The translations under genes and the position numbers were made by a program. The notes under the pieces are model-generated. The model was not told the DNA's origin, made no database searches, and worked only from the letters and a program-made list of their open reading frames with translations. Positions 467-18,787 of a stretch of 64,000 nt of DNA are shown piece after piece. Position 1 is the first letter of the stretch; every line of letters begins with the position of its first letter. This DNA comes from Rhizorhabdus dicambivorans (lineage in GTDB: Bacteria; Pseudomonadota; Alphaproteobacteria; Sphingomonadales; Sphingomonadaceae): contig NZ_CP023449.1 in the NCBI RefSeq assembly GCF_002355275.1, positions 124,001 through 188,000 of the forward strand. Reading direction: 5' to 3'.

Positions 467-1639
467 TTACGAGGTGCGCGCTCCCCCGAACAGTTCGGCG
501 ATCGTCCGCACCGAGGCGTCGGCGGCGGCGCGATCGGGGGTCTCGTCGGGGTCGTTGAAGCCGAAGCGGTCGTCGGCGCCGAGATCCTGGACGACGATCC
601 CGTCGCGCCGCCCCAGCACGCTCACATTGCGGTAGAGCAGCCCGTAGTTCACCCCCGCCTGGGGCAGCAGCCAGGCGATCTGGCCACGCACCGGCACGAT
701 GCTCTCGTCGCGGAACAGGGCGCGGGCGCCATAGCCGGTGCAGTTGACGATCACCTTTTCCCGGAGCCGCCCCAGCTCGGACGGGTGGTGAAACTCGGCG
801 GTCTCGATCCGGCCGCCGGCGGCCAGGAAATCATCGGTCAGCAGATGTGCCAGCCCGGCGACGTTGAAGGTCATCTGGCTGTTGCGCAGCGCATAGCGGG
901 TGGCGAAGGGATGGCTGCCGGGGCCGAAGACCTGCGAGCGCGGCGTGATATCGGCGATCAGATCGGAATAATGGGCGAAGCCAGCCACCTCGCTGGCGCG
1001 GAAGGCGGCGCGCATCTCGTCGGGCGGCAGGTCCGACAGGGTATAGCGGTCGGTCCATTCGACCGGATCGCCGGGCAGCCCGACATAGCTCTGCCACATC
1101 GCATAGCTGCCATGCGCCATCCGGCTCCATTGATCGGCGAAGGGCTGGCCGACCGCATTCGCCATGGCGACCCGCGAATCGGGCGTCCAGCTGCCGGTCG
1201 CACGGGCCGAGCGGACCTCGGGGAAGCGCTCCTTCGCGTAGATCGTCGCCCGCAGGCCGGCGCGCTGCGCCATGATCGCTGCGGTGAGGCCTAGCGCCCC
1301 GGCGCCGATCACCGCGATCTCCTTCGGGCTCGCCGCCATGGCGAGACGCAGCGCCTCCTGCGCCGAGCCCCAGCTCAGCGACCAGCCGCTGCCGCCATGG
1401 CCGTAATTGTGGACCACCAGCTTGCGGCCGACCTGCTCGCTCTCGATCCGCGGCCCCGCCGCGCGGAACGGACGCAGGCAGACAGTGACGCGGAACAGCC
1501 GGTCCGGGATCGCCCGGATGGGCATGATCGGCCCGATCGGATCGAACAGCGGTGGCACCGGCTGGGCAAGCAGCCGGCCGGGGCCGGCGAGGGCGGCGGC
1601 GGCAAGCGCGCCATGCTGGAGGAAATGACGTCGATCCAT
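467..1639 (-). CDS. Tat-exported FAD-dependent D-amino acid oxidase-like protein with permuted order
   Basis: 390 aa. The start at 1639 is chosen because it gives a twin-arginine leader (MDRRHFLQHG, then an Ala-rich core) preceded by a GGAG ribosome site; an upstream in-frame start at 1720 only adds Arg-rich residues. The FAD-binding Rossmann motif (VIGAGALGL, about residues 110-118) is not at the N-terminus. It is preceded by HNYGHGGSGW (about 77-86) and an RPF..GPRIE segment, which in D-amino acid oxidases form the C-terminal end of the protein. The C-terminus here stops at the VNCTGYGARAL and PVRGQI region, which is mid-protein in the normal order. The fold is probably intact but circularly permuted. 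An oxidase or dehydrogenase of D-amino acids or similar amines in the periplasm is likely; the substrate is unknown. Confidence 0.8.
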   Translation of the reverse strand: MDRRHFLQHGALAAAALAGPGRLLAQPVPPLFDPIGPIMPIRAIPDRLFRVTVCLRPFRAAGPRIESEQVGRKLVVHNYGHGGSGWSLSWGSAQEALRLAMAASPKEIAVIGAGALGLTAAIMAQRAGLRATIYAKERFPEVRSARATGSWTPDSRVAMANAVGQPFADQWSRMAHGSYAMWQSYVGLPGDPVEWTDRYTLSDLPPDEMRAAFRASEVAGFAHYSDLIADITPRSQVFGPGSHPFATRYALRNSQMTFNVAGLAHLLTDDFLAAGGRIETAEFHHPSELGRLREKVIVNCTGYGARALFRDESIVPVRGQIAWLLPQAGVNYGLLYRNVSVLGRRDGIVVQDLGADDRFGFNDPDETPDRAAADASVRTIAELFGGARTS

Positions 1640-1778: not shown

Positions 1779-1952
1779 ATGCTCATCCATGTCATCATCG
1801 TGCTGGTTATCGTCGGCATATTGCTGTGGCTGATCAACAATTATGTGCCGATGGACGGCAAGATCAAATCCATCCTCAACGCGGTGGTGGTGATCGTGGT
1901 GATCCTGTGGCTGCTCCAGGCGTTCGGCCTGCTCAGCGGCATCGGCATTTAA
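1779..1952 (+). CDS. small two-helix membrane protein (Thivi_2564-like)
   Basis: 57 aa. A CAGGAGG ribosome site sits six bases before the ATG, which is strong support for a real gene. The protein is two hydrophobic helices (IIVLVIVGILLWLI and AVVVIVVILWLLQAFGLL) joined by a short loop NNYVPMDGKIKSI. This architecture and the PM.GKIKSILN loop resemble the tiny membrane proteins called Thivi_2564 family; that assignment is from memory of the family, not a search. Function unknown; inner-membrane location is expected. The gene is convergent with the UdgX gene, with a hairpin between them. Confidence 0.75.
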   Translation: MLIHVIIVLVIVGILLWLINNYVPMDGKIKSILNAVVVIVVILWLLQAFGLLSGIGI

Positions 1953-2034: not shown

Positions 2035-3408
2035 TCATCTGCACATGGCGCGCAGATCCTCCACGAACCGCGCATATTCCTCGTCCACCCTTTCCCTGTC
2101 GGGCATGCGCAGCAGGAAGCTGGGATGGATCGTGGCACGCGCGGCGGTGCCGTCGGGCAGCACCAGATCGCGCCCGCGCTGCGACGTCAGGCTCTGCGCC
2201 CTGCCCGTCTGCGAGTGGATTGCGGTGGTTCCCAGCAGGACGATCCGCGACGGCCGGATGATCGCCTTTTCCTGATCGATCCACCAGCGGCAGGCGCTGA
2301 TCTCCCCGGCATTGGGCCGGGCGTGGATGCGCCGCTTTCCGCGCGGCTCGAATTTGAAATGCTTGACCGCGTTGGTGACATAGGCGCGGGAGCGGTCGAT
2401 CCCCGCCTCGGCCATCGCCTTGTCGAGCATCTGCCCCGCCGGCCCGACGAACGGCTTGCCGGCCAGATCCTCCTGGTCGCCGGGCTGTTCGCCGACGATC
2501 ATGATGTCGGCATCGGCCGGCCCTTCGCCGAACACCGTCCGGGTCGCGCATTTGTAGAGGCCGCAGCGGGTGCAGTGCGCCGCCTCCTCGCGCAGCGCCG
2601 CCAGAGCCTTGGTCGCGTTGCCGCCGGCTTCGGCCTTGGGCATGATCCGCTCCACCATCTGCGTCTCGCGGGCCCGGGCGCCCGCGACCAGTGAGGGGAT
2701 CAACGCGGTTTCGGGCATATTGGCCCAATATTTTCGCGGCATCTCCTTCAGCATCGCCCCGGTCTTGAGCCGCGCCGGATTGAAGATCGAGGCGTAATAG
2801 CCTTTCCACAGCGCCTCGACCGGATCGCCGGCCGGCGCATCGGCGCGCGTTGCGCCGGGCCCCTCGCGCAGGCGTTCGCCGTCCCAGTGGATCGACAGCT
2901 CGGGCGTCAGGATCGACCAGCGCATATTGGCGAAGCGCCGGGCGAAGAAGCCGGCATTGGCCCGGACGATATGATGATCCGGCTCAAACCAGGCTACATA
3001 GGTGCCATCCAGCTCCCGGAACCGTACGAAGGCACGCATCTTGTGGATGTCGCGCCGCACCTCCTTGGCCAGCGCCTCCAGCCGGCGGCGCAGCGGATCG
3101 GCCTCGTCGTCGATCAGCGCCGGATCGTCGCGCAGACGCAGCAGCATCGCATAGAGCAGCGCGAAGCGTTCGGCGTCGCGGTGGAGGACGACATGTTCGG
3201 CGAGGTCGAGGAAGCGCTTCGGCACCGAGAAGGCCGGCAGGCGCGGCGGGGGGACCGGATCGCCGGTGGCGTCGCCGAACAGGTCGCCGGCCTCACCCTC
3301 GACCTGCCAGCTCAGCGCGTCGGGCGGAAGATCGGCGAGCGCCGCCGCGCGGGCGGCATCGCGCCACCCTTCATGATCGTCGGGGCGGGCGAGAAGGATG
3401 CGGATCAT
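2035..3408 (-). CDS. udgX: DUF4130-UdgX fusion, uracil-DNA binding/repair protein
   Basis: 457 aa in two parts. Residues 1 to about 250 match the DUF4130 putative DNA-repair domain (opening MIRILLARPDDHEGWRDAAR). Residues about 270-457 are a family-4-like uracil-DNA glycosylase of the UdgX type: a CTRCGLYKC iron-sulfur motif (about 279-287), motif A GEQPGDQE (about 306-313), the diagnostic KRRIH loop (about 358-362) and motif B HPSFLLR. In characterised UdgX the His of KRRIH forms a covalent bond with the uracil site in DNA, so this enzyme is expected to trap uracil lesions. The neighbour on the same strand is a radical SAM/HhH protein with which DUF4130 proteins regularly pair, so the two probably act in one repair process. 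Confidence 0.92.
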   Translation of the reverse strand: MIRILLARPDDHEGWRDAARAAALADLPPDALSWQVEGEAGDLFGDATGDPVPPPRLPAFSVPKRFLDLAEHVVLHRDAERFALLYAMLLRLRDDPALIDDEADPLRRRLEALAKEVRRDIHKMRAFVRFRELDGTYVAWFEPDHHIVRANAGFFARRFANMRWSILTPELSIHWDGERLREGPGATRADAPAGDPVEALWKGYYASIFNPARLKTGAMLKEMPRKYWANMPETALIPSLVAGARARETQMVERIMPKAEAGGNATKALAALREEAAHCTRCGLYKCATRTVFGEGPADADIMIVGEQPGDQEDLAGKPFVGPAGQMLDKAMAEAGIDRSRAYVTNAVKHFKFEPRGKRRIHARPNAGEISACRWWIDQEKAIIRPSRIVLLGTTAIHSQTGRAQSLTSQRGRDLVLPDGTAARATIHPSFLLRMPDRERVDEEYARFVEDLRAMCR

Positions 3409-3657: not shown

Positions 3658-4893
3658 CTACCCGAACAGTTCCAGCTGCTCGGTGAGCTTGGTCCGCAGG
3701 TCGATCCGGTCGACCAGCGCGGTGGGGCGCCAGTCGCTGGTGACGATGAACGGCCGGAGCTTGGCGATCGAGCGCGACAGCCGCCCGACATCGGCGAGGC
3801 TGAGCCGCCGCCAGCGGCGCGAGGCGATGATGCCGTCGACCGCCTTCACGCCCAGGCCCGGCACCCGCAGCAGCAGCTCGCGCGGCGCCCGGTTGACGTC
3901 GACTGGAAAGGCTTCGCGGCGCTGGAGCGCCCAGGCGAGCTTGGGGTCGATATCAAGCGGCAGCATTCCCTGTTCGTCGGTCGCCTGCGCCACCTCGGCG
4001 GCGCGGAAGCCGTAGAAACGGGTCATCCAGTCGGCCTGGTAGAGGCGGTGCTCCCGCATCAACGGCGGGCGCCGGAGCGGCAGCACCGAGGACGCGTCCG
4101 GGATCGGGCTGAACGCCGAATAATAGACCCGGCGCAACCCGAAGCGATCATAGAGCCGGCTGGCGGTGCCGACGATGTCGCGGTCACTGGCGGCATCGGC
4201 GCCGACGATCATCTGGGTCGACTGGCCGGCGGGCGCGAAGCGCGGCGCCGATCGGTAGCGGCGCATCGCGTCGCCGCCGTCCTCGATCGACGCCTTCATC
4301 CCCGCCATCGCATCCTCGATGCGGGCGGTCGACTTTTCCGGGGCCAGCCGCTTCAGCCCCGCCACCGTGGGCAGCTCGATGTTGATCGAGACGCGATCGG
4401 CATGGCGGCCGGCCGCCTCGATCAGCGCCGGATCGGCGTCGGGGATCGTCTTGAGATGGATATAGCCGCGAAACTGGTGATCCTCACGCAGCGAGCGCGC
4501 CACCTCGACGATCTGCTCCATCGTATAGTCGGACGAGCGGATGATGCCGGAGGAGAGGAACAGCCCCTCAATATAGTTGCGCCGGTAGAAGGCGAGAGTG
4601 AGATCGACCACCTCCCTGGCAGTGAAGCGGGCGCGGCGGACGTTCGAGCTCTTGCGGTTGATGCAATAATGGCAGTCGAACACGCAGGCGTTGGTCAGCA
4701 ATATCTTGAGCAGCGAGATGCAGCGGCCATCGGGCGCATAGGCATGGCAGATGCCCATGCCCTCGGTCGATCCGATGCCCTTTGACTGCCCGGCCGAATC
4801 GCGCTTCGCGGTGCCCGACGAGGCGCAGGACGCATCATATTTGGCGGCATCGGCCAGAATTTCGAGCTTCTGCCGGACATCGATCTGGGCCAT
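3658..4893 (-). CDS. putative DNA modification/repair radical SAM protein
   Basis: 411 aa. The radical SAM cluster motif CxxxCxxC is at about residues 70-77 (ACVFDCHYCINR). The C-terminal third carries a helix-hairpin-helix DNA-binding segment (VNRAPRELLLRVPGLGVKAVDGI). This matches the family annotated as putative DNA modification/repair radical SAM protein, which co-occurs with DUF4130/UdgX proteins, as here. A 4Fe-4S cluster and SAM radical chemistry on DNA are expected; the lesion or product is unknown. The start at 4893 follows 70 bases after the end of the giant exoprotein gene on the same strand. Confidence 0.9.
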   Translation of the reverse strand: MAQIDVRQKLEILADAAKYDASCASSGTAKRDSAGQSKGIGSTEGMGICHAYAPDGRCISLLKILLTNACVFDCHYCINRKSSNVRRARFTAREVVDLTLAFYRRNYIEGLFLSSGIIRSSDYTMEQIVEVARSLREDHQFRGYIHLKTIPDADPALIEAAGRHADRVSINIELPTVAGLKRLAPEKSTARIEDAMAGMKASIEDGGDAMRRYRSAPRFAPAGQSTQMIVGADAASDRDIVGTASRLYDRFGLRRVYYSAFSPIPDASSVLPLRRPPLMREHRLYQADWMTRFYGFRAAEVAQATDEQGMLPLDIDPKLAWALQRREAFPVDVNRAPRELLLRVPGLGVKAVDGIIASRRWRRLSLADVGRLSRSIAKLRPFIVTSDWRPTALVDRIDLRTKLTEQLELFG

Positions 4894-4963: not shown

Positions 4964-7900
4964 TCAGGGGGTGCCGCCGACATCGAGGCCGTCGGCGCCC
5001 TGCCACAGGCTCGAATTGCCGCTGCTGATCACCGGCGTATCGATCTGGGTGGAGCTGCTGCCGATCGCGTTGACGTCGACGACGACATTGGGATTGGCGA
5101 CGGCCGCCGCGGCGGCGCCCTCGCCGCCGCCTTCCGACGACTCCTCGTCACCACCGGCATCGGCGGGATCGGGAGGCGTGTCCTCGGCGGCGGCCTGCTG
5201 GTTGCCGCCTTCGCCCTGGCCACCCTCGCCGCCCTGGCCGCCCTTGTCCCCGTCGCCGGAGGCCGAGCCGCCCCCGGAAGCGGAGCCGCCCTGGTCGCCA
5301 CCGCCACCACCGCCGCCCGAGGACTGGCTCTGCTGGCCGCCCCCCTGGCTGGAGGAGGACGAGCCACCGCCACCGCCCGAAGGCTGCGGAGGCGGGGGCG
5401 GCGGTGCCGGCGGCGGCGGGCTGGCGGAGAAGCCCCCGCCGCCCAGCGCGCCACCGACGGGGCCGGTGCTGACCGATCCACCCGAGACGCGGGCTCCGGT
5501 CAGCGACGACTGGATGCTCGACGTGATGTTCGTCGTCTCCTGCTGCACCGTCATCATCACCACCGGCTGCTGAATCGGCGGCGGCGGCGGTGGCGGCGGA
5601 GGTGGCGGCGGCGGAGGTGGCGGCGGCGGCGGCGGAGGTGGCGGCGGCGGCGGCGGCGGCGGAGGTGGCGGCGGCGGCGGAGGCGGCGGCGGCGGCGGGG
5701 GTGGCGGCGGCGGCGGCGGCGGCGGAGGTGGCGGCGGCGGCGGAGGTGGTGGCGGCGGCGGCGGAGGTGGCGGCGGCGGCGGCGGAGGCGGCGGCGGCGG
5801 CGGCGGAGGTGGCGGGGGCGGCGGGGGCGGGGGCGGGGGCGGCAATGGGGCAGCGTTGACGGTGATGGAGAAGCTCATCACCGCCATCTGGTTGTTGGAA
5901 TCGGTGACGGTGATCTGGAAATTGGACGTGCCAGCCCCGACCGGCGTGCCGGTGATATTGCCGGCCTGATCGAGCGAAAGCCCGGTGGGCAGGCTGCCCG
6001 ACGTCACAGTGTAGACATAGGGGCCGGTGCCGCCCGATGCGGCGAACATCTCCATATAGGAGGAGCCGCTGATACCGTTGGTCAGCGAACTGGTGTCGAA
6101 CATCGGCGAAGGCGGCGGCGTGACGGCGTTGATGGTGATCGAGAAGCTCATCACCGCCGTCTGGTTGTTGGAATCGGTGACGGTGACCTGGAAATTGGAG
6201 GTGCCCGCCCCTACCGGCGTGCCGGTGATATTGCCGCCCTCATCAAGCGAGAGCCCGGTGGGCAGGCTGCCCGACGTCACGGTGTAGACATAGGGGCCGG
6301 TGCCGCCCGATGCGGTGATCGTCTGGACATAGGGATCGCCATCGCTGCCGTCTTCGAGCGGGCCCGTGTCGAAGGTCGGCGATGGCGGCGGGGGCGGCGG
6401 CGGGGTCGGTGGGGGCGGCGGCGGCGGGGTGCAGGTCTGCCCGTTCACCGTGCAGCTGCCGAAGCTGTAGGTCCCGTTCACGCCGGTCACGAACTCGAAG
6501 CCGCCATCGGTGGTGAGCCCGAAATTGGCGAAGTTGATATTGCCTTCGGTCGACCGGATCTGGCTCACCGTCGAGGGGAAATTGCTGCCGGTGGCGATGA
6601 TATCGACATTGCCGGCGCTGATCGTGCCGCCATTGGCCTCTATGATGAAATAGCCATGCTGGGGCCGGCCGAACGGGCCTTCGAACGCGCGGAGCTGGAT
6701 GTTCGCATTGCCGGTGATCGTCACCGCCCCCGGATCGAGCGGCATGAAATCGCCGCGATATCCGGCGAAGATGGTGACCCCGCCGCCATTGGCGCCACCG
6801 CCGCCACCGCCGGAGCTGGTGAAATCGCCGCCACCCGCGCTGGCGATCGCGACCAGAGAAGCCAGGGTGGCGGTGCCGCCCTCGGCCCGGACCTCGATCG
6901 TCCCGCCGGTGCCGGTGCCGCTGATGCCGCCCGATCCGGTGCTGCCGCCATTGGCCCCGGCGGCGCCATCGCCGCCACGGACGCCCTGGCCGAAGACGTC
7001 GAGCTCCACGGCGCCGAAATTGCCGGTGCCCAGGGTTGTCGGGGTCTGCGGGCCGCTGAGGATCGCCAGCCGCACCGAGCCGCCGAAGCCCGCGCCGCCC
7101 GCGCCGCCCGCGCCGCCATTGACCGCGTCCTGCGACCCGGTGACGTTGCCCGAGCCATTGGCGCCGGCCCCGCCGAAGCCGACCGCCTGGGCCGTGATGC
7201 TGCCGGTGGTGATCGCCGCGACGCCGGCGTCGCCGCCGACGAAGATCGTGCCGCCCCGGCCATCGCCGCCCGCGCCGCCCGCCTGGCCCGACACGGTGGT
7301 GTTGGCCTGCGCCCCGCCGCCGCCGCCGATGGCGACAAGCGTGAGGGCGGACGCGTTGACCGTGCTGGCCGCTGGAGACGGCCCATTGGCCGCAAGCGCC
7401 GCGACCCGGATCACGCCGCCAAATCCATCGCCGCCCCGGCCCGGCGCGGCGCCGGGGACATCGGCGGCATTGCCGCCGCCATTGGCCGTCATGCTGAGCC
7501 CGCCGCTGAAGGTCAGCGTTCCCGAATAGGCCTCGGCGAAGGCGCCGCCATTGGCGACGATATTGCCGGGGGCGCCGCCGCCATAGCCGGCGCCGCCATT
7601 GAAGCCGCGCCCGCCACCGCCACTGACGTTGACCGAGGTGCCGTTGGTGACGGCGATCGAACCATGGGCCGCCTCGATCCGGGCGAGGCCGCCATAGCCG
7701 GCGGCAGCGGTGGCGCCATCGCCGCTCGAATTGCCGCCGCTGCCGCTGGCGGACAGGCTGAGGGTGCCGGTGCCGATCGTCGAACCGGCCGACGTCACCT
7801 CGAGCAGCGTCGAACCGCCGATGCCGAGCCCGCCGGTGGCGCCGCTGCGGCCGTTGCCGTCGGCCAGGAACTGGACCACCCCGCCCGCACTGAACGCGCC

Positions 7901-10900
7901 GCCGCCACCGACCGTGAGCCGCGCGGTGCCGCCCGTCCCGGCGCCGCCGATGCCGCCCGTGCCGAGCAGATCGTCGCCCCCCAGCGCGCCGAGGTTGACG
8001 TCGATGCCGTTGGTGACGTTGATCGCCCCGCCATTATCGACGCCGATGATCAGCGTGCCGCCAAAGGCATCGCCGCCCTCGCCCGTGGTGCCGCGGGCAT
8101 TGCCGCCAAAGCCGTTGGCGACGCCGCTGAGATTGGCGATCCGGATTTCGGCATCGGCGCCGTCGGCGCTGATCTCGACCTGGCCGCCGGTGGCGTCGCC
8201 GCCCCGGGTGCCGCCGACATTGCCGTCATTCGATCCGCCGCCCCGCCCGGTCAGCTCGAAGGCGATGCTGCCGGTTTCGATGCTGGCGGAGGAACCGGTC
8301 GCGCTGAGCCGGATCGCGCCGCCACGGCCTTCGCCGCCGGCGCTGGTCGGCGATCCGCCGCCCCGGCTGGGGCTGTTGGGGTTGATGTTGATATCGCCGA
8401 GGACGATCCCGGCCGAATCCTGGGCGGTGACCTCGAAGGTACCGCCGGTGCCGGTGCCGGTCGTTCCGCTGGTGGTGTTGCCGCCATTGGCGGCGAGATT
8501 GAGGTTGCTCGCCTGGGTGAAGGCGATCGAGCCGGTGCCGGCGGCGGTGATCGACAGGGTGCCGCCTGTCGCGTTGCCGCCCGCGCCGCTGTTCGAATCA
8601 TTGCCGTTCGCGGTGAGATCGAAGTTCAGCCGCCGCGCCTCGATCTGGCCGCTGCCGGTGACCGAAAGGCTGATCGTCCCCGCCTGGGCGGTGCCGCCAT
8701 AGCCGCCCTGCGAACCGCCGCTGCGCGCGCCATAGCCGCCGCCCAGCGAGCCGACCGTGATCCGGCTGCCCGTGCCGGCCGTCAGCGACAGCGAACCGCC
8801 GGTGGCATGGCCGCCTGCGTCCGAGCCCAAGGTGGCGCCCGCAAAGGCGTTGAGATCGATCGCCTCGAAATCGCCGGTCTCAATGACGCCGCCGTTGAGC
8901 GCCGACAGGGCGATGCCGGCGCCCTGGGCGAAGCCGCCCTCTCCGGTGATGCTGTTGCCCGCGTTGAGCCGCGAACTGAGGATCGGATTGGCGGTGAGGT
9001 GGATCGTGCCGCCATCGGCGGTGAAGTTCATCGTGGCGCCGCTGGAATCGCCGCCTTCGCCCTCACCGATGTTGCTGGCGTTGCCGGCATCGGCATTGCC
9101 CTCGACCGCCAGGGTCTGGACAAGGGTGATGTCGCTGCCGCCGCCGGTCGCGGTCATGGCGAGATGGCCCGAGGACGCATTGCCACCGTTGCCCGGAGTG
9201 TTGCTGCCCCCGGCCGAACTGATCGTGACGGTGGTGCCCCCGGCGACGTTGACCGTGCCGCCGCCGGCCACCGCGAATTCCGCCACGCCGCCGATGCCGT
9301 CGCCGCCATCATTGCCATAGCCGCCGGCGCCGCGCAGCCGCAGGGTCACGTTGCCGGCGAAATCAAGCTCGCTGCCGGCGTCGAAGGCGTGGAGGTAGAG
9401 GCGGCCGGCATGGCCTTGCCCGCCCGCGCCCAGGCCATTGCCGGACTGGCCGGCACCGTTGACGCTGAGCATCACATCGCCGTTGAAGGCGAGGCCGCCG
9501 CCGAGGATCGTCTCCAGCCGGATATCGCCGCCCTGGCCGTTGCCGCCCGGATCGCCGCTGATGATCGCGGCGCCGCCCTCGCCCTGGGCCTGGGCGTTGA
9601 ACGCGCCGTCCACGGTGACATCGGCGCCCGCGCCGGCCGCCACGATGGTGACGTCGCCGCCCCGGCCGAGCGCGCCCGCCCCTCCGAAGCCGTTGGCAGC
9701 GATCGTCAGCGCGCCGTCGAACTGGACCTGATCGCCCGCCGATATCGCCTCGATCCAGACATCGCCGCCGCGCTGATCGCCGGTGCCGCCGATATTGCTG
9801 GTGAAGATGCTGACATCGTCGCCGAAGCTGACCGAGCCCGCGCCGCTGCGGATACGGACGGTGCGTTGCGGCGCGGCGATGTCCAGCTTGCCGCCGAACG
9901 TCTGCGCGCCCTCGATCTGAATCCCCATGGCCGATCGCCAATAGGTCTGCACACCGCTGGCGGTACCGAAGCCGCCCCGCAGCAGGACGGCCGTATCGCT
10001 GCCATTGCCCGAAGAGACCGGCCCGATATTGTTGAAGCCCCCCGCGACATCGCGTCCGGTGGCGATCACGATCCCCTGGGCACCGGCGTCAACGCCCTGC
10101 CCCAGGGCGAAATCGAGACTGCCGTTGCTGAGATCGAGAAAGACAACGCCCTGCGAGCCGGTGGCGAGATAGATGCCATGCGCCTCGCCGACGCCGGGGG
10201 TGACCAGCGTGTTGCCATTGTGGGTCAGCGCGAAGACCGCGTCCGTGCCCTGGTTGACGGTGATGCCGAACAGGTCGTCCAGGGTGATATCGGCATCGCG
10301 CGCTGCGACATAGGCGACGCTGCCGGTCGCGTTGACCGTGCCCTGTTGCTCGATCCGGGGCGCGATGAGGGCGAGGTAGCCGTTGGCAGATATGCTCGAA
10401 TCGATCCGGATCAGCTGGCTGTCGGCGCTGGCCTGATCGGTCCGCAGATCGGTGAAGCGATCATTGGCATCGGTGAAGCCGATATCCGCAGTCGACAGCA
10501 CCAGCCCGCCGACGTCGATGGTGGCGCCGCCGCCCAGCAATATGCCGCCGGGGCTGTAGAACCAGATATTGCCGCCGGGGCCGATGAGATTATTGCCCGC
10601 ATCGTAGAGGCGGCTGCGCAGCGTGCCGTTGAACGCGATCGCCCGGCCCGAAGCGCCGCCGCCGGGGATCACCCGGTTGAGGACGGTGAAGCCGCCGAGA
10701 TTGCCGGTGCCGTTGCGGAAGGTGGCGGTCGAGCTGCTCGGCAGGAAATCGATCGCGCCGCTGCCACCAGCGGTGTCGTCGGGCGTCCAGTTGATGATCG
10801 CGGTGGGCGCGTTGACGAAGATGGTGTCGCTGTTGTCGACACGCTGGATGTCGTAGGCAGCCGTCGTCAGCGCATCCGGAGCACCCGCGAAGCCGAATAT

Positions 10901-13900
10901 CTGCGGCAGCGGAGGCGGCGGCGGGGGACCGCCCGACAGGCCCTCGGGCGGATCGGCGGCGGGATCGCAGGCGACGCCGGCGACCACGCATTCGTTGATC
11001 ACGGTAGGCACGTTGAGGGCGTAGAAGTCCGCCGTGATGCTGCCCTGGGTATCGAGGTAGAAGGCGACCGTGATGCCGTCCCCGGTGATCGCCAGATCGG
11101 CGCCGTTCGGATTGACGAAGTCGATCGCGCCATAGGCCGCCTGGATGCGGTTCGGCGCGCCTTCGCCGCCGGGATCGCCATTGGCGGTGATGGTCGCCTG
11201 GGCGGTGACGCTGATGTCGCCCCGGAAGGTGGAGATGTTGAAGGTACCGGCGGTGTCGGAGAAGGTGCTGCCCTTGTCCGTCCGGTCGCCGGTCAGGTTG
11301 GCCGTGAAGCCGGCGAGCTCGACCCGGCCGCGCTGGTCGTTCTGTTCATAGCGATTGCCCGAGCCGATCTCGAAATCGCCACCCCGGCCGCTGCCGTTGA
11401 CGCCGAAGGTGCCGTCGCTGCCGCTGCCGCTGCCCAGGCCGGCGTCGCCGCCTTCGCCACCATGGCCGACGAGGGTGATGGTGGTGGCGCCGCCGATCTT
11501 CAGCCCGGTGGGGGTGGCCCCGTCGCTGGCGCCGTTCGCGCTGAGCCTGACCGTTCCGCCGCGACCGTCGCCGCCATCGCCGCCGGATCCGGCCTGGAAA
11601 TCCGTCGAATCGCCGCCATTGCCGCCATCGCCGCCGATGCCGCCGGCATTGATGTCGGCGGCGTTGATCCGGACGAAGCCGTCATTCTGGACGACCGCGC
11701 TGTCCCCACTGACCAGCCCGATCTCGACATGGCCGCCTTCGCCATTGCCGGCGCGCCCGCCGCTGGAGCCGGGGCTGCTGCCCGACTTGTTGCTGCCCCC
11801 GGTGCCGCCATTGCCGCCGCTGCCCCGAACATCAATGAGCTGCGAGCTGATGTCGACCTGCCCCCGGCCCGCCTCGGCACCGATCGACACGGTGCCGCCG
11901 AAGCCGCTGCCGGCATCGCTACCCGGCTTGCTCGTGCCGCCGGCGTCCCGGCCGGCGGCACCGATGCCCTGCATGTTCCAGACGAAATTCTGCGGCGTGC
12001 TGGTGATATGGCCGCCGCCGCTCTCGCCATTATAGGCGAAGATTTCGCCATAGCCGCCATAGCCGTCGCCGCCGGCGCCCAGTGTATTGGCACTGTCCGG
12101 GCGATTCTGGCCGCCGAGGCCGCTGGCGCTGAGGAAGACGGCGCCGCCGGTGAGCGTCAGCGTGCCGTCGTCGGCGCGCAGATAGAGCCCGCCGCCGCCG
12201 TCGTTCAGCCCGAAACCGCCCGATCCCTCGCCGCCATGATAGCCGGTGCCGCCGAGGCCGCTGCCGTTGAAATTGCCGTCGCCGACGGTCACCGATCCGC
12301 CGTCGACGACGCGGATGCCGGCCTTGCCGCCCTGTCCGAGGCCGCCCTGCGAATCGGTCAGCACCACATTGTTGCCGTCGCCGATCACATTGCCGCCATT
12401 GCCGACCGCGGCGATGCCCAGCGACCCGATGGTGATTCCGGTGCCGCCCTCGGTGCCGATCTCCCCGGTCCCGCCATGGCCGGTGCCGCCCGCCATCGCG
12501 CCCTGGCCGCCATTGCCGTTGGCGTCGAGCTGGAGGCCGCCGAACTGGAGGGTGCCGCTGCCGCCGCCGACCGTCAGATAGCCGCCATAGCCGTCGCCAC
12601 CGGAGCCGGCGACGCCATAGCCGCCGACGGCGTTGGCGCTGATGATGAAGGTGCCGTCGCTGCGCACCGCCGCGCTGTCCTCGGCCCGGACATAGAGGCT
12701 GCCCCCGGTGCCGGTGCCCGCCGTACCGTCCGCGCTCGCGCCGCCATAGCCGGTGAGCAGGGCAAACAGGCCGTCATGGAAATAGAGCGAGGAATCGCCA
12801 TCGGCGCGGATGTCGATGCGGCCGCCGGTCGCATCGCCGCCGCGATCATAGCCGTCGCGGATCGAACCCTCGGCGCGGATGTCGATATTGCCATGGGTAT
12901 CGATATGGCCGCCATCGAGCGCGAAGAACTCGAACTGGCCGGCGGTCGCGGTGCCGCTGTGGTTGCCGGTGACGCCATTGCTGCCGCCGCCGCCCGCTAT
13001 GGCATCGAGCGACATCTGGATCGAAGCGCCGTCCTGCGCGGTGCCGATCGACAGTGCGCCGTCCGCCCCCGAGGCGACCAGCTGGATATAGCCGTGCGGA
13101 TCGTTGCTGCTCGGCAGATCGGTGATGACGTTGCCGCCATTGCCCTGGTCGCTGTTGCCGCCGCGCGCCGTGGCGAAGAGCTGGAACTCGTGACCGGCCG
13201 AAGCCTCGATCGTCCCGCCGAGTGCCTGCACCTGCAGGGCGCCGGCATAGGCATCGCCGCCGTCATTGCCGAGGCCGCTGGCATTGCCGCCATAGGCGCT
13301 GGCGACCAGGGTCGTCGTGGCGCCGATCTGGATCGACGCGCCCTGAAGCGCCGTGACGCGAATATTGCCGCCCTCGCCATCGCCGCCCTTGCTGCTCGAC
13401 GATCCGCTGCCATAGCCTTCGGACTGAACGTAGAGCCGTCCGCCTATGGTAAGCTGGGCGCCGGCGGCCTCGGCCGCGACGACCACGTCGCCGCCGGTGC
13501 CGCGCTGGCCTTCATTGCCGGCGATACCGCTTGCGGTGATATCGACATCGCCGTCGAACTGGAGGTGGCCGTTCGCCTCGTTGCTGCGGATCGCGACCGA
13601 ACCGCCATGCCGCGCCCCGCCACCGATATCGGTGACGTTGATGTTGAGCGCGCCCCCGACGCTCACCGTGCCGGCCGCCGGGCGGATCAGCACATCATGG
13701 CCGGGATTATGGATATCGAGCCGGCCGCCGAAGCTGTGGCCGCCCTGGAAATCCAGATCGGTCGCCGCGCGGATATAGGTGGGCACCTCGCTGCCGACGG
13801 CGAAGCTGCCGCGCAGCAACGTCCCCAGCCCGGTGCCGGCATTGGCGACGCCATTGCCGATATCGTTGAAATCGGCCTTCAGCTCGTGGTTGAACCCGAT

Positions 13901-16900
13901 CAGGATGGCCTGGTTCTGGGCGCTGACCCCCTGCCCCAGGGTGAAATCGAAGCTGGCGCCGCCCACATCGACGAACTGGCCCTGGCCATGGGCCGCGGCC
14001 GCGACATAGATGGCGTGCTGCCGGCTGTCGTTGTCGGGGACATCGACGATCGTCTGGCCGGTGAGCGTGAGCGCGAAGGTCGCGTCGGAGCCGCCATCGG
14101 GATCGTAGATGATCGCCATTCGGCCGTCGCGGAAATCGATATCGGCATCGCGCGCCGCGACATAGGCGGCACTGCCCTTCGAACGGACGACACCGCTCTG
14201 CTCGACGACCGGCGCCATGGCAAGGAAATAGTCGCTGACGTTGATGCTGGACGATTCGACCCGGACCAGCTGGCTGTCGAGGCTGGCCTGTTCGGTGATG
14301 ATGTCGGCGAAGCGCTCGTTCGCATCGGAAAAGCCGATATTCGCGGTCGAGAGCACCAGTCCGCCGACATCGATCGAGGCGCCGCCGACCAGGATGCCGT
14401 TCGGGCTGTAGAACCAGACGTTGCCGCCGGTGCCGATCAGAGTGTTGCCGGCATCGTAGAGACGGCTGGTGATCGTGCCGTTGAGGGCGATCGCGCGGCC
14501 GCTCGCCGCGCCGCCCGGCATGATCCGGTTGAGCACGGTGAAGCCGCCGAGATTGGCGGTGCTGTTGCGGTAGGCAGCGGTCGAGCCCGAGGGCAGGAAG
14601 TCGATCGCGTTGCTGCCGGAGCCGGTATCGTCGGGGGTCCAGTTGATGATCGCGGTGGGCGAATTGACGAAGATCGTGTCACCGCCGCTGTCACGCTGGA
14701 TGTCGTAATCGGCGGTCGAGAGCGAGCCCGGCGCCCCGGCGAAGCCGTTGCCGCCGGTCGGCGGCGGGGGTGGCGGTCCACCGCAGCTGTCGTCGAGCAG
14801 GCAGCCGCCATCGATCGACAGGACACTGAAGGAATAGGTTCCGGCGACCACATTGCCGCCGGCCAGCTCCACGATCTGGAGATTGCTGTCGGGCGTGGTG
14901 ACGACGAGATCGTCGCCGGAGGCGTTGTCGAAGGTGATCGTGCCCGATTCCGCCCGGATCAGGCCGGGATCGCTCTGCGACGGCGGAAGGTTGAGGAAGG
15001 CGACGATGGACGTCCCGCCGATCCGCATGTCGCCACGCAGCGCGGTGATCTCGAAGCTGCCGGCGACGCCCTCGGCACCATTGCCGGAGCCGCGATTGCC
15101 CGACAGATTGGCGGAAAGGCCGCCCAGATCGACCATGCCCCGGACATCGTCGGCGCCATCACGGCTCGTCGATTCGATCCGCAGCGAGCCGCCGGTGCCG
15201 CGGCCACCGCCGCCGTCCGGGCCCTGGCCGCCGCCCTGGCCACCCGTGCCGCCCAGGCCGCCATTGCCGCCATAACCGCGCGCCAGGACGTCGACCGGGT
15301 CGGCTATCTCCAGCCCGACAGCGGGGTTGCCGCTCGATCCATGGGCGTAGAGTTCGACGCTGCCGCCCTCGCCAAGGCCGCCCGCGCCGCCGGTGCCCCC
15401 GTTGGGAGCCCCCGATCCGCCGTCCCCGCCGTCCCCGCCGAAGCCGATTACTTCGGCGGACAGCCGGTCGAGGCGGGTCGAGCCCTCGGTCTGCTGGCCG
15501 GCCGGACCATCATCGAGCAGCACCCGGATGCTGCCCCCGGTCGCGCCGCCGCCCGCGCCGGCCACCGTCGGCTGGGCCGCATTGCCCTGCGCGCCGCCAT
15601 TGCCGCCGCGCCCGCCGGTGGCGTTTGCCTCGGCATCGACGTCGCCGATGTCGATCTGGCCATTGCCGGCCTCGGCCGAGATGATGATCCGGCCGGCCAC
15701 CGCATCGCCGCCGGCCCCGCCGCCCTGGCCATCCCCGGCCACACCGGCATTGCCGCCGGTCGCGCCGGCGTTGATGCTGATGTCCATCGCGCCGGTCTCG
15801 ACACGGCCGATGCCGTTGCCGGTGAGCGCGACGATCCGGACATCGCCGCCGCCGCCGTCACCGGCGCCAAGGACGACGCCGTTGCGATCCGCCTCGCTCA
15901 GGCCGCCGATGCCGGTCGCGGTCAGCGACAGGAACAGGCCGGTGATATCGAGCGTGCCGTCGGTCGCGTCGAGGAAGGCGCCGTTGCCGCCTTCGACCAG
16001 CCCGGCACCGCCTTCACCGAACCCGCCGATATTGCCCGCGCCGCCGCGGCCGTCCGAACTGATCGAGCCACCGCTGATCGTCACCTGGCCGCGGAAAACC
16101 TCGACACCGGCACGGCCGCCATAGCCGGCGCCTCCGGCCGCCCCGGCGCCGCTGCCGGCGATGTCGCTGGTGAAGCTGAGGCCGGCCGCCCCGCCCTGGC
16201 CATCGGCGCTGAGGCTGATCTGGCCAACTGTCACCGTGGCGCCGCCGGCGCTGGTGACGACGGCAGTGCCGCCCCGGCCCTGGCCGCCCTGCGCCGCACC
16301 GGCGCCGCCGAGGCCGTCCGCGATCAGCGAAATGCTGCCGACGGAGAACCCGCCCGACGAATCGCCGCCGAAGACCAGTTCCCCGCCCTGCCCGTCGCCG
16401 CCCTGCCCGGCGAAGGCGGTGCCGCCGACGCCATTGGCCTGGATGCCGAAGCCGCCATCGACATCGATCGTCGCGCTGCCGACAGTGCCGATGAGGGTGC
16501 TTCCGCCGAGCCCGGTTCCGCCGGCGCCGGCTTCGCTGCTGCCGCCCTCTCCGTCCAGGGTCAGCGACAGGCCGCCCGTTATGGAGATGGCGGAACCATC
16601 CACCGCGATCAGGCGGAACAGACCGCCGGTGGCGTTGCCGCCGGCCTGCGACTCCCCGCTGTTGACGCGGGCCGAGGCGCTGGCATCCAGCGAGCCGTGG
16701 ATGGTGATGCCCTGGCTTTCGAACGCCGCCATCTCCAGATAGCCGGCGCGCGCCTCGCCACTGATGCTGGCCCCGCTGCCGCCGCCGGCATCGGCATCGA
16801 GATTGACGCTGATCGATGCGCCCGACTGCTCGGTGCCGAACTGGATATGGCCATCCTGGCCGTTGACGATGAGGGCGACATAGCCGCTGACCTGCCCGCC

Positions 16901-18640
16901 CTCGTCGAAGCGGACCGCGCGGGCATCGCCGCCGGCGCTGCCGTCGCTGTCGCCGCCCGAGATCCCGGCGCTCAGCTCGCTAGATCCGCCGCCGATCAGG
17001 ATGCCGCCATTGGTCGCGGCCAGCCGGACCGTGCCCGCCAGGCCTTCGCCCCCGCCGCCATCCGCGCCGTTGCCGCCATGGCCATCGGCGAAAAGATGGA
17101 CGCCCTGGCCGGTCTGTATCGTGCCGCCGTTCAGCGCCTCGACCGATATCTGGCCGCCCGAGCCATTGCCCGCCAGCCCGCCGCCGCCCTGGATCGATCC
17201 GCCGGTACCGCTCGCCCGTCCGGTCAGCGCCCCGCCGATGGTGAGCGAGGCGCCGGCGCCCGTCGCTGACAAGGCGATATTCCCGGCCAGCGCGTCGGCG
17301 GGGCCGGCGGCCGAAGCGCCGGTGTCGATGGTGAGATCGCCATCGATGCTGAGGACGGTGCCCGCATTGGCGCTGATGCCGACGCCACCGCCATTGGCGG
17401 CGCCCGAGGTGGAGGAGACGCTGGTGTCGATCGACAGGCTGCCGCCGATCCCGGCATTGCCCGCCGAGCTGTCGACCGCGACGTTCAGCCCGCCGGCGAC
17501 GATGCCGACATCGCCGCCTGCCGCGAGACTGGCCACCGTCAGGTTCTGCGCGGACCGGATATAGACCGGGGCGCCATCCTCCTGCGCAAGATCGCCGCCC
17601 TCGATGCGGACGGCGCCACCGCCCCGGCCGATCGAGACATTGCCGACCGCATCGAGCGACGCGGCGGAAACATCGCGCCCCGCGGTCAGGACGATGCCCT
17701 GGTCGCTCGCCTCGACGCCCTGCGCCAGGGTGAAATCGAGGCTGCCGCCGGTCAGCAGCATCGTCAGCGCCTGGTTCTTGGGCACGGCGACGAGATAGAT
17801 GGCGCGGTGGGGCGGCTCCTGCGGGTTCGACGGCGCATCGACCGTGACGTTGGTGGTGCCGCTGTGGGTGAGCGCATCCGCGACACCGCTGCCGACCGGC
17901 ACGCTGATGTCGAACAGCTCGCCGGAGAAGGTGATGTCGGCGCGTTCGGCCGCGACATAGGCGACATTGCCGTGCGAGCCGACCGAGCCCGCCTGGACGA
18001 TCTTCGGCGCGATCACCCCGACATAGTCCGAGCCGCTGACCGTGGCGCCGGTGTCGATCCGCACCGCCGCCCCGGCGCTGCTGTCCGTCAGACCGTTGAG
18101 CGCAGTGAAGGGATCCTCGTCATCGTCGAACTGGGCATCGGCGGTGGTGAGGACGAGGCCGCCTACGTCGATGGAAGCACTGGCGCCGACCAGGATGCCG
18201 CCGGGGCTGTAGAACCAGACGTTGCCGCCGGTCCCGATCAGCCCGCCCTGGGCATCGTAGAGCTTGCTGGTGATCGTGCCGTTGAGCGCAATGTCCCGCG
18301 TCGTATCGGCGGGGACGATGCGGTTGAGGACCGTAAAGCCGTTCTGGTTGGCCAGGCTGTTGCGGAAATCTACGCTCGATCCCGAGGGCAGGAAGTCGAT
18401 CGTGCCGCCGCCCGTGGCGGTGTCCGTCGGCGTCCAGTTGATGATCGCGGTCGGCGAGTTGACCGTGACCGTATCGGTATTGGCGTTGCGGACGATGCTG
18501 TAATCGGGGGTCGAGATCGCGCCCGGACTACCCGCGAAGCCATTCGCCGAACCCCGCGCCGGCAGCACCAGCATCGACGCCAATGCCAGAACCGAGGTAA
18601 GCGTACGCGCCTGCGGCATACCCGGGATACGGGACGCCAT
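4964..18640 (-). CDS. giant FHA-like two-partner secretion exoprotein with three TPS modules
   Basis: About 4,558 aa. The ATG at 18640 precedes a signal-like segment (TLTSVLALASMLVLP); a GTG at 18670 is possible. Three filamentous-haemagglutinin N-terminal (TPS) modules begin near residues 20, 1298 and 2585. Each has NGFAG (FGFAG in the third), TVNSPTAIINW or FVN.PTAIINW, IDFLPS, FTVLNR and WFYSP.GI, and is followed by about 1,000 residues of Gly/Ala/Asn-rich beta-helix repeats. Two He_PIG immunoglobulin-like repeats (FDT.. GGTGPYVYTVTSGSLPTGLS) lie at about 4087-4259, then 89 consecutive prolines (about 4267-4355), then a tail with TVQQETTNI and a final IDTPVISSGNSSLWQGADG. It is expected to be exported by the TpsB at the head of the operon and to lie on or outside the cell surface, perhaps as an adhesin. 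No toxin domain is visible. Confidence 0.9.
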   Translation of the reverse strand: MASRIPGMPQARTLTSVLALASMLVLPARGSANGFAGSPGAISTPDYSIVRNANTDTVTVNSPTAIINWTPTDTATGGGTIDFLPSGSSVDFRNSLANQNGFTVLNRIVPADTTRDIALNGTITSKLYDAQGGLIGTGGNVWFYSPGGILVGASASIDVGGLVLTTADAQFDDDEDPFTALNGLTDSSAGAAVRIDTGATVSGSDYVGVIAPKIVQAGSVGSHGNVAYVAAERADITFSGELFDISVPVGSGVADALTHSGTTNVTVDAPSNPQEPPHRAIYLVAVPKNQALTMLLTGGSLDFTLAQGVEASDQGIVLTAGRDVSAASLDAVGNVSIGRGGGAVRIEGGDLAQEDGAPVYIRSAQNLTVASLAAGGDVGIVAGGLNVAVDSSAGNAGIGGSLSIDTSVSSTSGAANGGGVGISANAGTVLSIDGDLTIDTGASAAGPADALAGNIALSATGAGASLTIGGALTGRASGTGGSIQGGGGLAGNGSGGQISVEALNGGTIQTGQGVHLFADGHGGNGADGGGGEGLAGTVRLAATNGGILIGGGSSELSAGISGGDSDGSAGGDARAVRFDEGGQVSGYVALIVNGQDGHIQFGTEQSGASISVNLDADAGGGSGASISGEARAGYLEMAAFESQGITIHGSLDASASARVNSGESQAGGNATGGLFRLIAVDGSAISITGGLSLTLDGEGGSSEAGAGGTGLGGSTLIGTVGSATIDVDGGFGIQANGVGGTAFAGQGGDGQGGELVFGGDSSGGFSVGSISLIADGLGGAGAAQGGQGRGGTAVVTSAGGATVTVGQISLSADGQGGAAGLSFTSDIAGSGAGAAGGAGYGGRAGVEVFRGQVTISGGSISSDGRGGAGNIGGFGEGGAGLVEGGNGAFLDATDGTLDITGLFLSLTATGIGGLSEADRNGVVLGAGDGGGGDVRIVALTGNGIGRVETGAMDISINAGATGGNAGVAGDGQGGGAGGDAVAGRIIISAEAGNGQIDIGDVDAEANATGGRGGNGGAQGNAAQPTVAGAGGGATGGSIRVLLDDGPAGQQTEGSTRLDRLSAEVIGFGGDGGDGGSGAPNGGTGGAGGLGEGGSVELYAHGSSGNPAVGLEIADPVDVLARGYGGNGGLGGTGGQGGGQGPDGGGGRGTGGSLRIESTSRDGADDVRGMVDLGGLSANLSGNRGSGNGAEGVAGSFEITALRGDMRIGGTSIVAFLNLPPSQSDPGLIRAESGTITFDNASGDDLVVTTPDSNLQIVELAGGNVVAGTYSFSVLSIDGGCLLDDSCGGPPPPPPTGGNGFAGAPGSLSTADYDIQRDSGGDTIFVNSPTAIINWTPDDTGSGSNAIDFLPSGSTAAYRNSTANLGGFTVLNRIMPGGAASGRAIALNGTITSRLYDAGNTLIGTGGNVWFYSPNGILVGGASIDVGGLVLSTANIGFSDANERFADIITEQASLDSQLVRVESSSINVSDYFLAMAPVVEQSGVVRSKGSAAYVAARDADIDFRDGRMAIIYDPDGGSDATFALTLTGQTIVDVPDNDSRQHAIYVAAAAHGQGQFVDVGGASFDFTLGQGVSAQNQAILIGFNHELKADFNDIGNGVANAGTGLGTLLRGSFAVGSEVPTYIRAATDLDFQGGHSFGGRLDIHNPGHDVLIRPAAGTVSVGGALNINVTDIGGGARHGGSVAIRSNEANGHLQFDGDVDITASGIAGNEGQRGTGGDVVVAAEAAGAQLTIGGRLYVQSEGYGSGSSSSKGGDGEGGNIRVTALQGASIQIGATTTLVASAYGGNASGLGNDGGDAYAGALQVQALGGTIEASAGHEFQLFATARGGNSDQGNGGNVITDLPSSNDPHGYIQLVASGADGALSIGTAQDGASIQMSLDAIAGGGGSNGVTGNHSGTATAGQFEFFALDGGHIDTHGNIDIRAEGSIRDGYDRGGDATGGRIDIRADGDSSLYFHDGLFALLTGYGGASADGTAGTGTGGSLYVRAEDSAAVRSDGTFIISANAVGGYGVAGSGGDGYGGYLTVGGGSGTLQFGGLQLDANGNGGQGAMAGGTGHGGTGEIGTEGGTGITIGSLGIAAVGNGGNVIGDGNNVVLTDSQGGLGQGGKAGIRVVDGGSVTVGDGNFNGSGLGGTGYHGGEGSGGFGLNDGGGGLYLRADDGTLTLTGGAVFLSASGLGGQNRPDSANTLGAGGDGYGGYGEIFAYNGESGGGHITSTPQNFVWNMQGIGAAGRDAGGTSKPGSDAGSGFGGTVSIGAEAGRGQVDISSQLIDVRGSGGNGGTGGSNKSGSSPGSSGGRAGNGEGGHVEIGLVSGDSAVVQNDGFVRINAADINAGGIGGDGGNGGDSTDFQAGSGGDGGDGRGGTVRLSANGASDGATPTGLKIGGATTITLVGHGGEGGDAGLGSGSGSDGTFGVNGSGRGGDFEIGSGNRYEQNDQRGRVELAGFTANLTGDRTDKGSTFSDTAGTFNISTFRGDISVTAQATITANGDPGGEGAPNRIQAAYGAIDFVNPNGADLAITGDGITVAFYLDTQGSITADFYALNVPTVINECVVAGVACDPAADPPEGLSGGPPPPPPLPQIFGFAGAPDALTTAAYDIQRVDNSDTIFVNAPTAIINWTPDDTAGGSGAIDFLPSSSTATFRNGTGNLGGFTVLNRVIPGGGASGRAIAFNGTLRSRLYDAGNNLIGPGGNIWFYSPGGILLGGGATIDVGGLVLSTADIGFTDANDRFTDLRTDQASADSQLIRIDSSISANGYLALIAPRIEQQGTVNATGSVAYVAARDADITLDDLFGITVNQGTDAVFALTHNGNTLVTPGVGEAHGIYLATGSQGVVFLDLSNGSLDFALGQGVDAGAQGIVIATGRDVAGGFNNIGPVSSGNGSDTAVLLRGGFGTASGVQTYWRSAMGIQIEGAQTFGGKLDIAAPQRTVRIRSGAGSVSFGDDVSIFTSNIGGTGDQRGGDVWIEAISAGDQVQFDGALTIAANGFGGAGALGRGGDVTIVAAGAGADVTVDGAFNAQAQGEGGAAIISGDPGGNGQGGDIRLETILGGGLAFNGDVMLSVNGAGQSGNGLGAGGQGHAGRLYLHAFDAGSELDFAGNVTLRLRGAGGYGNDGGDGIGGVAEFAVAGGGTVNVAGGTTVTISSAGGSNTPGNGGNASSGHLAMTATGGGSDITLVQTLAVEGNADAGNASNIGEGEGGDSSGATMNFTADGGTIHLTANPILSSRLNAGNSITGEGGFAQGAGIALSALNGGVIETGDFEAIDLNAFAGATLGSDAGGHATGGSLSLTAGTGSRITVGSLGGGYGARSGGSQGGYGGTAQAGTISLSVTGSGQIEARRLNFDLTANGNDSNSGAGGNATGGTLSITAAGTGSIAFTQASNLNLAANGGNTTSGTTGTGTGGTFEVTAQDSAGIVLGDININPNSPSRGGGSPTSAGGEGRGGAIRLSATGSSASIETGSIAFELTGRGGGSNDGNVGGTRGGDATGGQVEISADGADAEIRIANLSGVANGFGGNARGTTGEGGDAFGGTLIIGVDNGGAINVTNGIDVNLGALGGDDLLGTGGIGGAGTGGTARLTVGGGGAFSAGGVVQFLADGNGRSGATGGLGIGGSTLLEVTSAGSTIGTGTLSLSASGSGGNSSGDGATAAAGYGGLARIEAAHGSIAVTNGTSVNVSGGGGRGFNGGAGYGGGAPGNIVANGGAFAEAYSGTLTFSGGLSMTANGGGNAADVPGAAPGRGGDGFGGVIRVAALAANGPSPAASTVNASALTLVAIGGGGGAQANTTVSGQAGGAGGDGRGGTIFVGGDAGVAAITTGSITAQAVGFGGAGANGSGNVTGSQDAVNGGAGGAGGAGFGGSVRLAILSGPQTPTTLGTGNFGAVELDVFGQGVRGGDGAAGANGGSTGSGGISGTGTGGTIEVRAEGGTATLASLVAIASAGGGDFTSSGGGGGGANGGGVTIFAGYRGDFMPLDPGAVTITGNANIQLRAFEGPFGRPQHGYFIIEANGGTISAGNVDIIATGSNFPSTVSQIRSTEGNINFANFGLTTDGGFEFVTGVNGTYSFGSCTVNGQTCTPPPPPPPTPPPPPPPSPTFDTGPLEDGSDGDPYVQTITASGGTGPYVYTVTSGSLPTGLSLDEGGNITGTPVGAGTSNFQVTVTDSNNQTAVMSFSITINAVTPPPSPMFDTSSLTNGISGSSYMEMFAASGGTGPYVYTVTSGSLPTGLSLDQAGNITGTPVGAGTSNFQITVTDSNNQMAVMSFSITVNAAPLPPPPPPPPPPPPPPPPPPPPPPPPPPPPPPPPPPPPPPPPPPPPPPPPPPPPPPPPPPPPPPPPPPPPPPPPPPPPPPPPPPPPPPPPPIQQPVVMMTVQQETTNITSSIQSSLTGARVSGGSVSTGPVGGALGGGGFSASPPPPAPPPPPPQPSGGGGGSSSSSQGGGQQSQSSGGGGGGGDQGGSASGGGSASGDGDKGGQGGEGGQGEGGNQQAAAEDTPPDPADAGGDEESSEGGGEGAAAAAVANPNVVVDVNAIGSSSTQIDTPVISSGNSSLWQGADGLDVGGTP
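5576..5842 (-). repeat. trinucleotide tract coding 89 consecutive prolines
   Basis: On the plus strand the tract is an unbroken run of NGG triplets (CGG, AGG, TGG, GGG), which on the coding strand reads as 89 proline codons without interruption. It links the He_PIG repeats to the conserved C-terminal tail of the exoprotein. Triplet repeats keep the frame when they slip, but embedded G5 runs could cause frameshifts. Confidence 0.9.
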
Positions 18641-18787
18641 CGGCCGCCCTGAACTGCTGCTGCCCCCCACAAGCCCCCCGGATGGCCGCCGGAGACCCGG
18701 CCGCCTTGTTGCCCCGCAGCCCGTCTAGCATGCGCGAATCGGGTCAACCAGCCCGTAAGGTTACGGTCTTCCCGGAAAAAATTCCGA

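Follow-up and report, generated by a model that had tools for sequence, protein, structure and literature searches.

A candidate circularly permuted D-amino acid oxidase-type flavoprotein with a Tat leader in Rhizorhabdus dicambivorans

The Locus and the Arrangement of the Encoded Protein

The region analyzed here, called the window, is a stretch of 64,000 nucleotides from contig NZ_CP023449.1 of Rhizorhabdus dicambivorans. Close to its start, an open reading frame (ORF) of 390 amino acids is located on the minus strand, with an ATG at position 1639 and the stop codon at 467-469, and the coordinates 467-1639 given for it in the original prediction are correct. The following features were assigned to this gene:

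467..1639, minus strand: coding sequence of a D-amino acid oxidase (DAAO)-like flavoprotein, predicted to be permuted; 390 amino acids plus stop, with intact relatives at 53-87% identity, most of them aligned from end to end
1562..1639, minus strand: predicted Tat signal peptide, residues 1-26 (MDRRHFLQHGALAAAALAGPGRLLAQ), without lipobox; based on the sequence and a weak match to Pfam TAT_signal (residues 1-18) below the cut-off
1334..1507, minus strand: putative moved DAAO C-terminal piece, residues 45-102, with the CLRPFR strand, a hairpin, the HNYGHGG strand and helix 89-101; based on the PDB matches of profile A2
1478..1480, minus strand: Cys54 at Pfam DAO position 309, invariant in the clade of the window protein
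1472..1474, minus strand: Arg56, equivalent to Arg283 of human DAAO, invariant in 84 of 84 aligned sequences
1391..1411, minus strand: HNYGHGG motif, residues 77-83, located near the C-terminus in ordinary DAAO
1286..1324, minus strand: beginning of the FAD domain (residues 106-118, comprising strand 1 and GxGxxG), connected to the moved piece without a gap
620..622, minus strand: Ser340, corresponding to Tyr228 of human DAAO; the residue varies (Ser, Asn, Phe or Tyr) across the window clade
482..700, minus strand: new C-terminal part, residues 314-386, with the VRGQ strand, strands 332-352 and helix 370-389; stops at about DAAO residue 269

The protein starts with MDRRHFLQHGALAAAALAG, which comprises an RR motif and a hydrophobic stretch. 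The leader is followed by CLRPFRAAGPRIE and HNYGHGGSGWSLSWG (together residues 54-91), which lie ahead of the FAD strand and its motif VIGAGALGL, whereas in canonical DAAO the corresponding elements form the end of the protein. Within this segment CLRPFR occupies residues 54-59 and HNYGHGGSGW residues 77-86, and the FAD motif at residues 110-118 comes after both, so the HNYGHGGSGW segment and the Arg-Pro strand do precede the FAD motif as originally predicted. The order of DAAO and D-aspartate oxidase (DASPO), with the FAD domain first and HNYGHGG last, is not found in the window protein.

Sequence Evidence for a Rotated Order

In a BLASTP comparison with a canonical Streptomyces DAAO two crossed segments were obtained, with residues 107-384 aligning to 8-258 (4e-11) and residues 53-99 to 271-320 (3e-9). 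A phmmer search against the PDB gave the DAAO 7ct4 as best match, in which residues 48-102 correspond to 320-374 (i-Evalue 3e-8), residues 106-140 to 24-58 and residues 279-325 to 199-243. Furthermore, when the own genome was searched with the Pfam DAO profile, profile positions 305-350 were matched upstream in the gene of positions 2-322. The unrotated protein reaches 83.3 bits against the Pfam DAO superfamily (PF01266), above the curated cut-off of 27.9 bits; after the order had been restored in silico, the two matches became one, covering positions 2-350 of the 353 in the profile, and the score rose from 83.3 to 96.6 bits. Judged by these alignments, the rotated order of matches is far above chance.

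Profile A2, which represents the moved piece alone, was compared with the PDB, and at E<1e-4 it matched solely the C-termini of DAAO and DASPO (7ct4 320-371 with 5e-15; human DAAO 274-328). The next best match was a different protein at 0.001. These results bear on the alternative of a fusion without permutation, in which the protein would have lost its true C-terminal part and gained an HNYGHGG segment, unrelated or convergent, at its front. Such a fusion would explain why the segment is found at the other end, and nothing more. It is contradicted by the segment itself, which taken alone is homologous almost from end to end to the C-termini of DAAO, and by the crossed BLASTP segments; in addition, the C-terminal part lacks exactly this piece, and the same arrangement is present in all permuted members checked, which makes it extremely improbable. 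The parent segments are instead each present once, in rotated order and with the old ends joined, as is characteristic of circular permutants. That every piece occurs once, as had been claimed, agrees with the finding that none of 179 scanned family ORFs carries two HNYGHGG motifs.

Predicted Structure

The proposed DAAO-like fold was checked by structure prediction. AlphaFold2, run as a monomer with 70 sequences, yielded a model with a pLDDT of 90.7 and a pTM of 0.87, confident throughout residues 45-386. As predicted, the moved piece consists of strands 48-58, 65-70 and 73-78 and helix 89-101 and continues into the FAD strand 107-111. Foldseek and VIA-align both rank DAAO/DASPO first, which identifies a DAAO fold. 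In VIA-align, model residues ~104-386 were superimposed on DAAO 1-269 with a Z of 19-21 and an rmsd of 2.7-2.8 Å for the mammalian enzymes; the DAAO tail stayed unmatched, this alignment being sequential, so that the moved piece cannot enter it. The end of the structural matches at DAAO residue 269 also bears out the claim that the C-terminus stops in the middle of DAAO. L-amino acid deaminase of Proteus and 3dme, titled conserved exported protein, which likewise have folds of the DAO superfamily, matched the same region of the model in unrotated order, but more weakly (Z ~16).

The N-terminal piece modeled alone reached a pLDDT of 66.8 and lost strand 48-58. Because the confidence drops in this way, the moved piece owes its high confidence to the remainder of the protein. 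Such a loss would be expected if the partner strands sit elsewhere in the chain. A domain-swapped or complemented assembly, in which the N-terminal piece fills the C-terminal slot of a neighboring subunit, would fit a piece that is not stable alone in the prediction, and only the monomer was modeled. However, strand 1 is reached by a linker of just a few residues, and confidence in the monomer model is high across residues 45-386. The chain ends of canonical DAAO lie close together in the FAD domain, which also counts against a swap, and the assembly is considered very unlikely. In all likelihood, the moved piece fills the old DAAO C-terminal slot within the same chain. Mean-field DCA with 123 sequences (78 effective) gave mixed pairs, a signal too weak for use.

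In the proposed scheme, the old C-terminal piece with the substrate-Arg strand, the hairpin, the HNYGHGG strand and the last helix would lead the chain and pass through a short linker into FAD strand 1, and both new chain ends would lie at a former loop near DAAO residues 269-277. Compared with DAAO/DASPO (PDB 7ct4, 2du8, 6rkf), the FAD fold, GxGxxG, HNYGHGG, the carboxylate Arg and the secondary-structure elements are in common, whereas the window protein differs in its rotated order, its Tat leader, the position of Tyr228, which is not conserved, and, in the window clade, a Cys beside the Arg. The circular permutation put forward in the original prediction is supported by the crossed BLASTP segments, the phmmer matches, the order of the Pfam matches, the restored-order match and the same order in relatives. 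The window protein is thus very likely a DAAO-fold flavoprotein that is a natural circular permutant and is exported via a Tat leader; this grading covers the permuted, exported DAAO fold and excludes the proposed chemistry.

Distribution and Origin of the Permuted Family

The same order was sought in other genomes and was found in hundreds of relatives. There are at least 560 relatives, and the best 80 of 560 have the same rotated order. A census of genes coding for HNYGHGG at the DNA level, which presupposes no segment order, detected 19 genes in 398 genomes of Pseudomonadota, all 19 permuted. In 149 Acidobacteriota genomes it detected 16 genes, of which 10 have the permuted and 6 the canonical order; two of these 10 were classed by reading the sequence, since they escaped an overly strict GxGxxG pattern. 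In the genus of the window, the permuted gene is present in 13 of 14 genomes, and a permuted copy is also present in one actinomycete, Nonomuraea. The arrangement is identical in all permuted members checked. On the compared sequences, the rotated order is a trait of a whole family and no oddity of a single genome. Genes in canonical order were sampled from actinomycetes, Vibrio, Burkholderia and a haloarchaeon.

In a phylogenetic tree, 42 permuted and 14 canonical proteins are split by one branch (support 100/99.8, 200 of 200 bootstrap trees), with the permuted sequences rotated back for the tree alignment only, the in-silico junction included and few canonical rows. A larger quick tree with 84 rows gave the same split. 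The nearest canonical-order relatives found are DAAO-like proteins of Actinobacteria and Acidobacteria (L145-L150, L157-L159, L161, L162), which carry the same motifs but have the ordinary order and no Tat leader and lie on the opposite side of this branch. The permuted order is derived, since the remaining superfamily members, among them five further DAO proteins of the same genome, are canonical. Three permuted groups can be distinguished, a rhizobial/actinobacterial one, an intermediate one and the clade of the window protein. The whole permuted family probably originates from one permutation, and the window clade would have altered its active site later. A duplicated intermediate with both copies of the moved piece was sought among the 179 scanned family ORFs and was not found.

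It is unusual to find a large flavoenzyme of two domains that is circularly permuted in nature, occurs widely in this form and is nevertheless predicted to fold. A search of open-licence papers for permuted DAAO, flavoproteins or FAD-dependent oxidoreductases and for Tat in connection with DAAO returned no description. The annotation of the genes solely as ‘FAD-dependent oxidoreductase’ may be caused by linear profiles, which see two out-of-order parts. As permuted and canonical forms coexist in Acidobacteriota, the effects of the permutation on folding, export and catalysis could be compared there.

One Acidobacteriota genome (G495) codes for two permuted paralogues (L170, L172). Additionally, a second protein of the DAO family, full-length and canonical, is encoded in the window at 61430-62476 on the minus strand (G000:C1:185430-186476).

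Tat Leader and Export

The Tat leader claimed for the protein was recovered, as the N-terminus shows the twin-arginine motif and a hydrophobic stretch and the genome contains TatC. By a simple rule, 62 of the 69 permuted proteins were assigned a Tat-like leader, against none of the 15 canonical ones. Such leaders were found in 45 of 48 proteins of the window clade (lipobox in 31), in all 16 of the intermediate group (lipobox in 12) and in one of five rhizobial proteins. The three misses in the window clade are a truncated ORF (L097) and two proteins, L029 and L155, that do have RR motifs but fall short of the strict hydrophobicity rule. According to these N-terminal sequences, the Tat leader is a typical, though not a universal, trait of the permuted proteins, as the deep clade of rhizobia and Nonomuraea is mostly without it. 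With the leader mostly absent from this deepest permuted clade, Tat export may have been gained together with the permutation or later.

With high probability the window protein is exported. The leader on the new N-terminus would allow the enzyme to fold and bind FAD in the cytoplasm before its export to the periplasm, and the many relatives with a lipobox would become lipoproteins. The association with Tat suggests a concrete reason for a possible selection of a new N-terminus.

Active Site and Cofactor

In DAAO, Arg283 and Tyr228 hold the substrate carboxylate (PMC6279847). Human DAAO residue numbers were assigned to the window protein from motifs and from the HMMER alignment output, and of this pair the Arg is retained (Arg56) and the Tyr is not. 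Among the other permuted proteins 16 of 21 have a Tyr at the Tyr228 position, and among the canonical ones 11 of 15. Since this position is Ser340 in the window protein and variable in its clade, the protein is not classed as a DAAO enzyme. In contrast to Gly in nearly all other permuted and all canonical proteins (Gly281 in human DAAO), the window clade has the invariant Cys54. Also fixed in the clade are Trp86 and Gln351, the latter replacing the LGG motif, and RSARAT takes the place of TTSxVA.

These exchanges have to be weighed against the view that the protein is an ordinary DAAO in function, which uses O2 and D-amino acids and is only rearranged and exported. Best matches to DAAO/DASPO in fold and sequence as well as the retained HNYGHGG and Arg283 equivalent are in line with it. 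However, Tyr228 is not conserved, the invariant Gln351 in place of LGG, RSARAT in place of TTSxVA and Cys54 in place of Gly281 are nearly or fully fixed in the clade, and the sister permuted clades retain the DAAO residues, so that the change of the active site is specific to the window clade; an ordinary DAAO function is regarded as unlikely. As far as the aligned residues indicate, the active site of this clade is redesigned, with the Arg kept, Tyr228 not conserved and Cys54 new.

Both Cys54 and the Cys of monomeric sarcosine oxidase (MSOX) are located at Pfam DAO position 309, the column of the covalent-FAD cysteine, and residue 414 of FsqB aligned with the MSOX Cys. The window protein has a Cys at the position of the MSOX-type 8alpha attachment, and Cys-414 of FsqB is its site of covalent FAD attachment (PMC6222107). 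MSOX and FsqB belong to the same superfamily (PF01266, covalent FAD) but have the canonical order, and MSOX has a Tyr where DAAO has the substrate-carboxylate Arg. Flavinylation requires a Lys in FsqB (Lys-448) and in MSOX (PMC6222107). In the window protein no Lys is present at the nearest positions after HNYGHGG; owing to the different length of this loop, the assignment of the equivalent position is uncertain. Because the flavinylation Lys is without a clear counterpart, a covalent binding of FAD at Cys54, by analogy to these enzymes, is proposed as a rather doubtful possibility.

Gene Neighborhoods and Proposed Function

Most likely, the window protein is a periplasmic flavin oxidase or dehydrogenase of an amino or imino acid. 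It is fairly probable that it oxidizes a small carboxylate-bearing amine or imino acid. That the electrons pass to an acceptor of the respiratory chain, for instance cytochrome c, and not to O2 alone is a real possibility, if slightly the less probable case. In Kozakia baliensis a cytochrome c gene lies 5 bp downstream of the permuted gene, in a cluster with a prolyl-oligopeptidase-type peptidase (S9), two beta-lactamase-family hydrolases and a canonical DAO, adjoined by a TonB receptor; this is the one clear case of an adjacent cytochrome c in the family and is not general. In Sphingobium a hydantoinase/oxoprolinase gene is located downstream, and the cytosolic-looking rhizobial forms are flanked by genes for an FAD-binding oxidoreductase on one side and a TPP enzyme on the other. 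Other neighbors, named by eye, are EtfAB in Rhizorhabdus, uracil-DNA-glycosylase (UDG)/radical SAM genes in sphingomonads, a phosphate-transport-like cluster in Phenylobacterium and HflX/MgtE-like genes in Bradyrhizobium. Because gene neighbors are not conserved, the functional reading rests on the fold and a few lineage-specific clusters. The widest version of it, in which a single permutation freed a new N-terminus for a Tat leader and a lipid anchor and the window clade is a periplasmic amino- or imino-acid dehydrogenase, covalently flavinylated at Cys54 and feeding cytochrome c, is quite unlikely in its entirety.

An operon-based function for the whole family was rejected, as direct neighbors vary by lineage and none is conserved family-wide.

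On rhizobial plasmids, clusters of an FAD-binding oxidoreductase, a permuted DAAO without Tat leader and a TPP enzyme were found at L152 2488-6714, L154 2414-6741 and L153 3926-6788. In Mesorhizobium (L153) the annotation splits the permuted gene in two, suggesting a frameshift.

Genes resembling those for EtfB and EtfA (L177 4064-5763) are located shortly before the window begins, two genes from the permuted gene, and they stay there in relatives from Rhizorhabdus and Sphingomonas. This association is probably mere synteny, because Etf proteins are cytoplasmic. On the other side, uracil-DNA-glycosylase-like and radical-SAM-like genes (by eye; 2035-3408 and 3658-4893, minus strand) lie beside the permuted gene, as in many sphingomonads, and this pair has no evident functional link to it. 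A divergent gene for a small membrane protein of 57 amino acids (1779-1952, plus strand) is located between the permuted and the glycosylase genes. Finally, an ORF of 4568 amino acids (4964-18670, minus strand) contains three repeated filamentous-haemagglutinin-like blocks, Gly-rich repeats and, ahead of its C-terminus, a long proline run on the order of a hundred residues.
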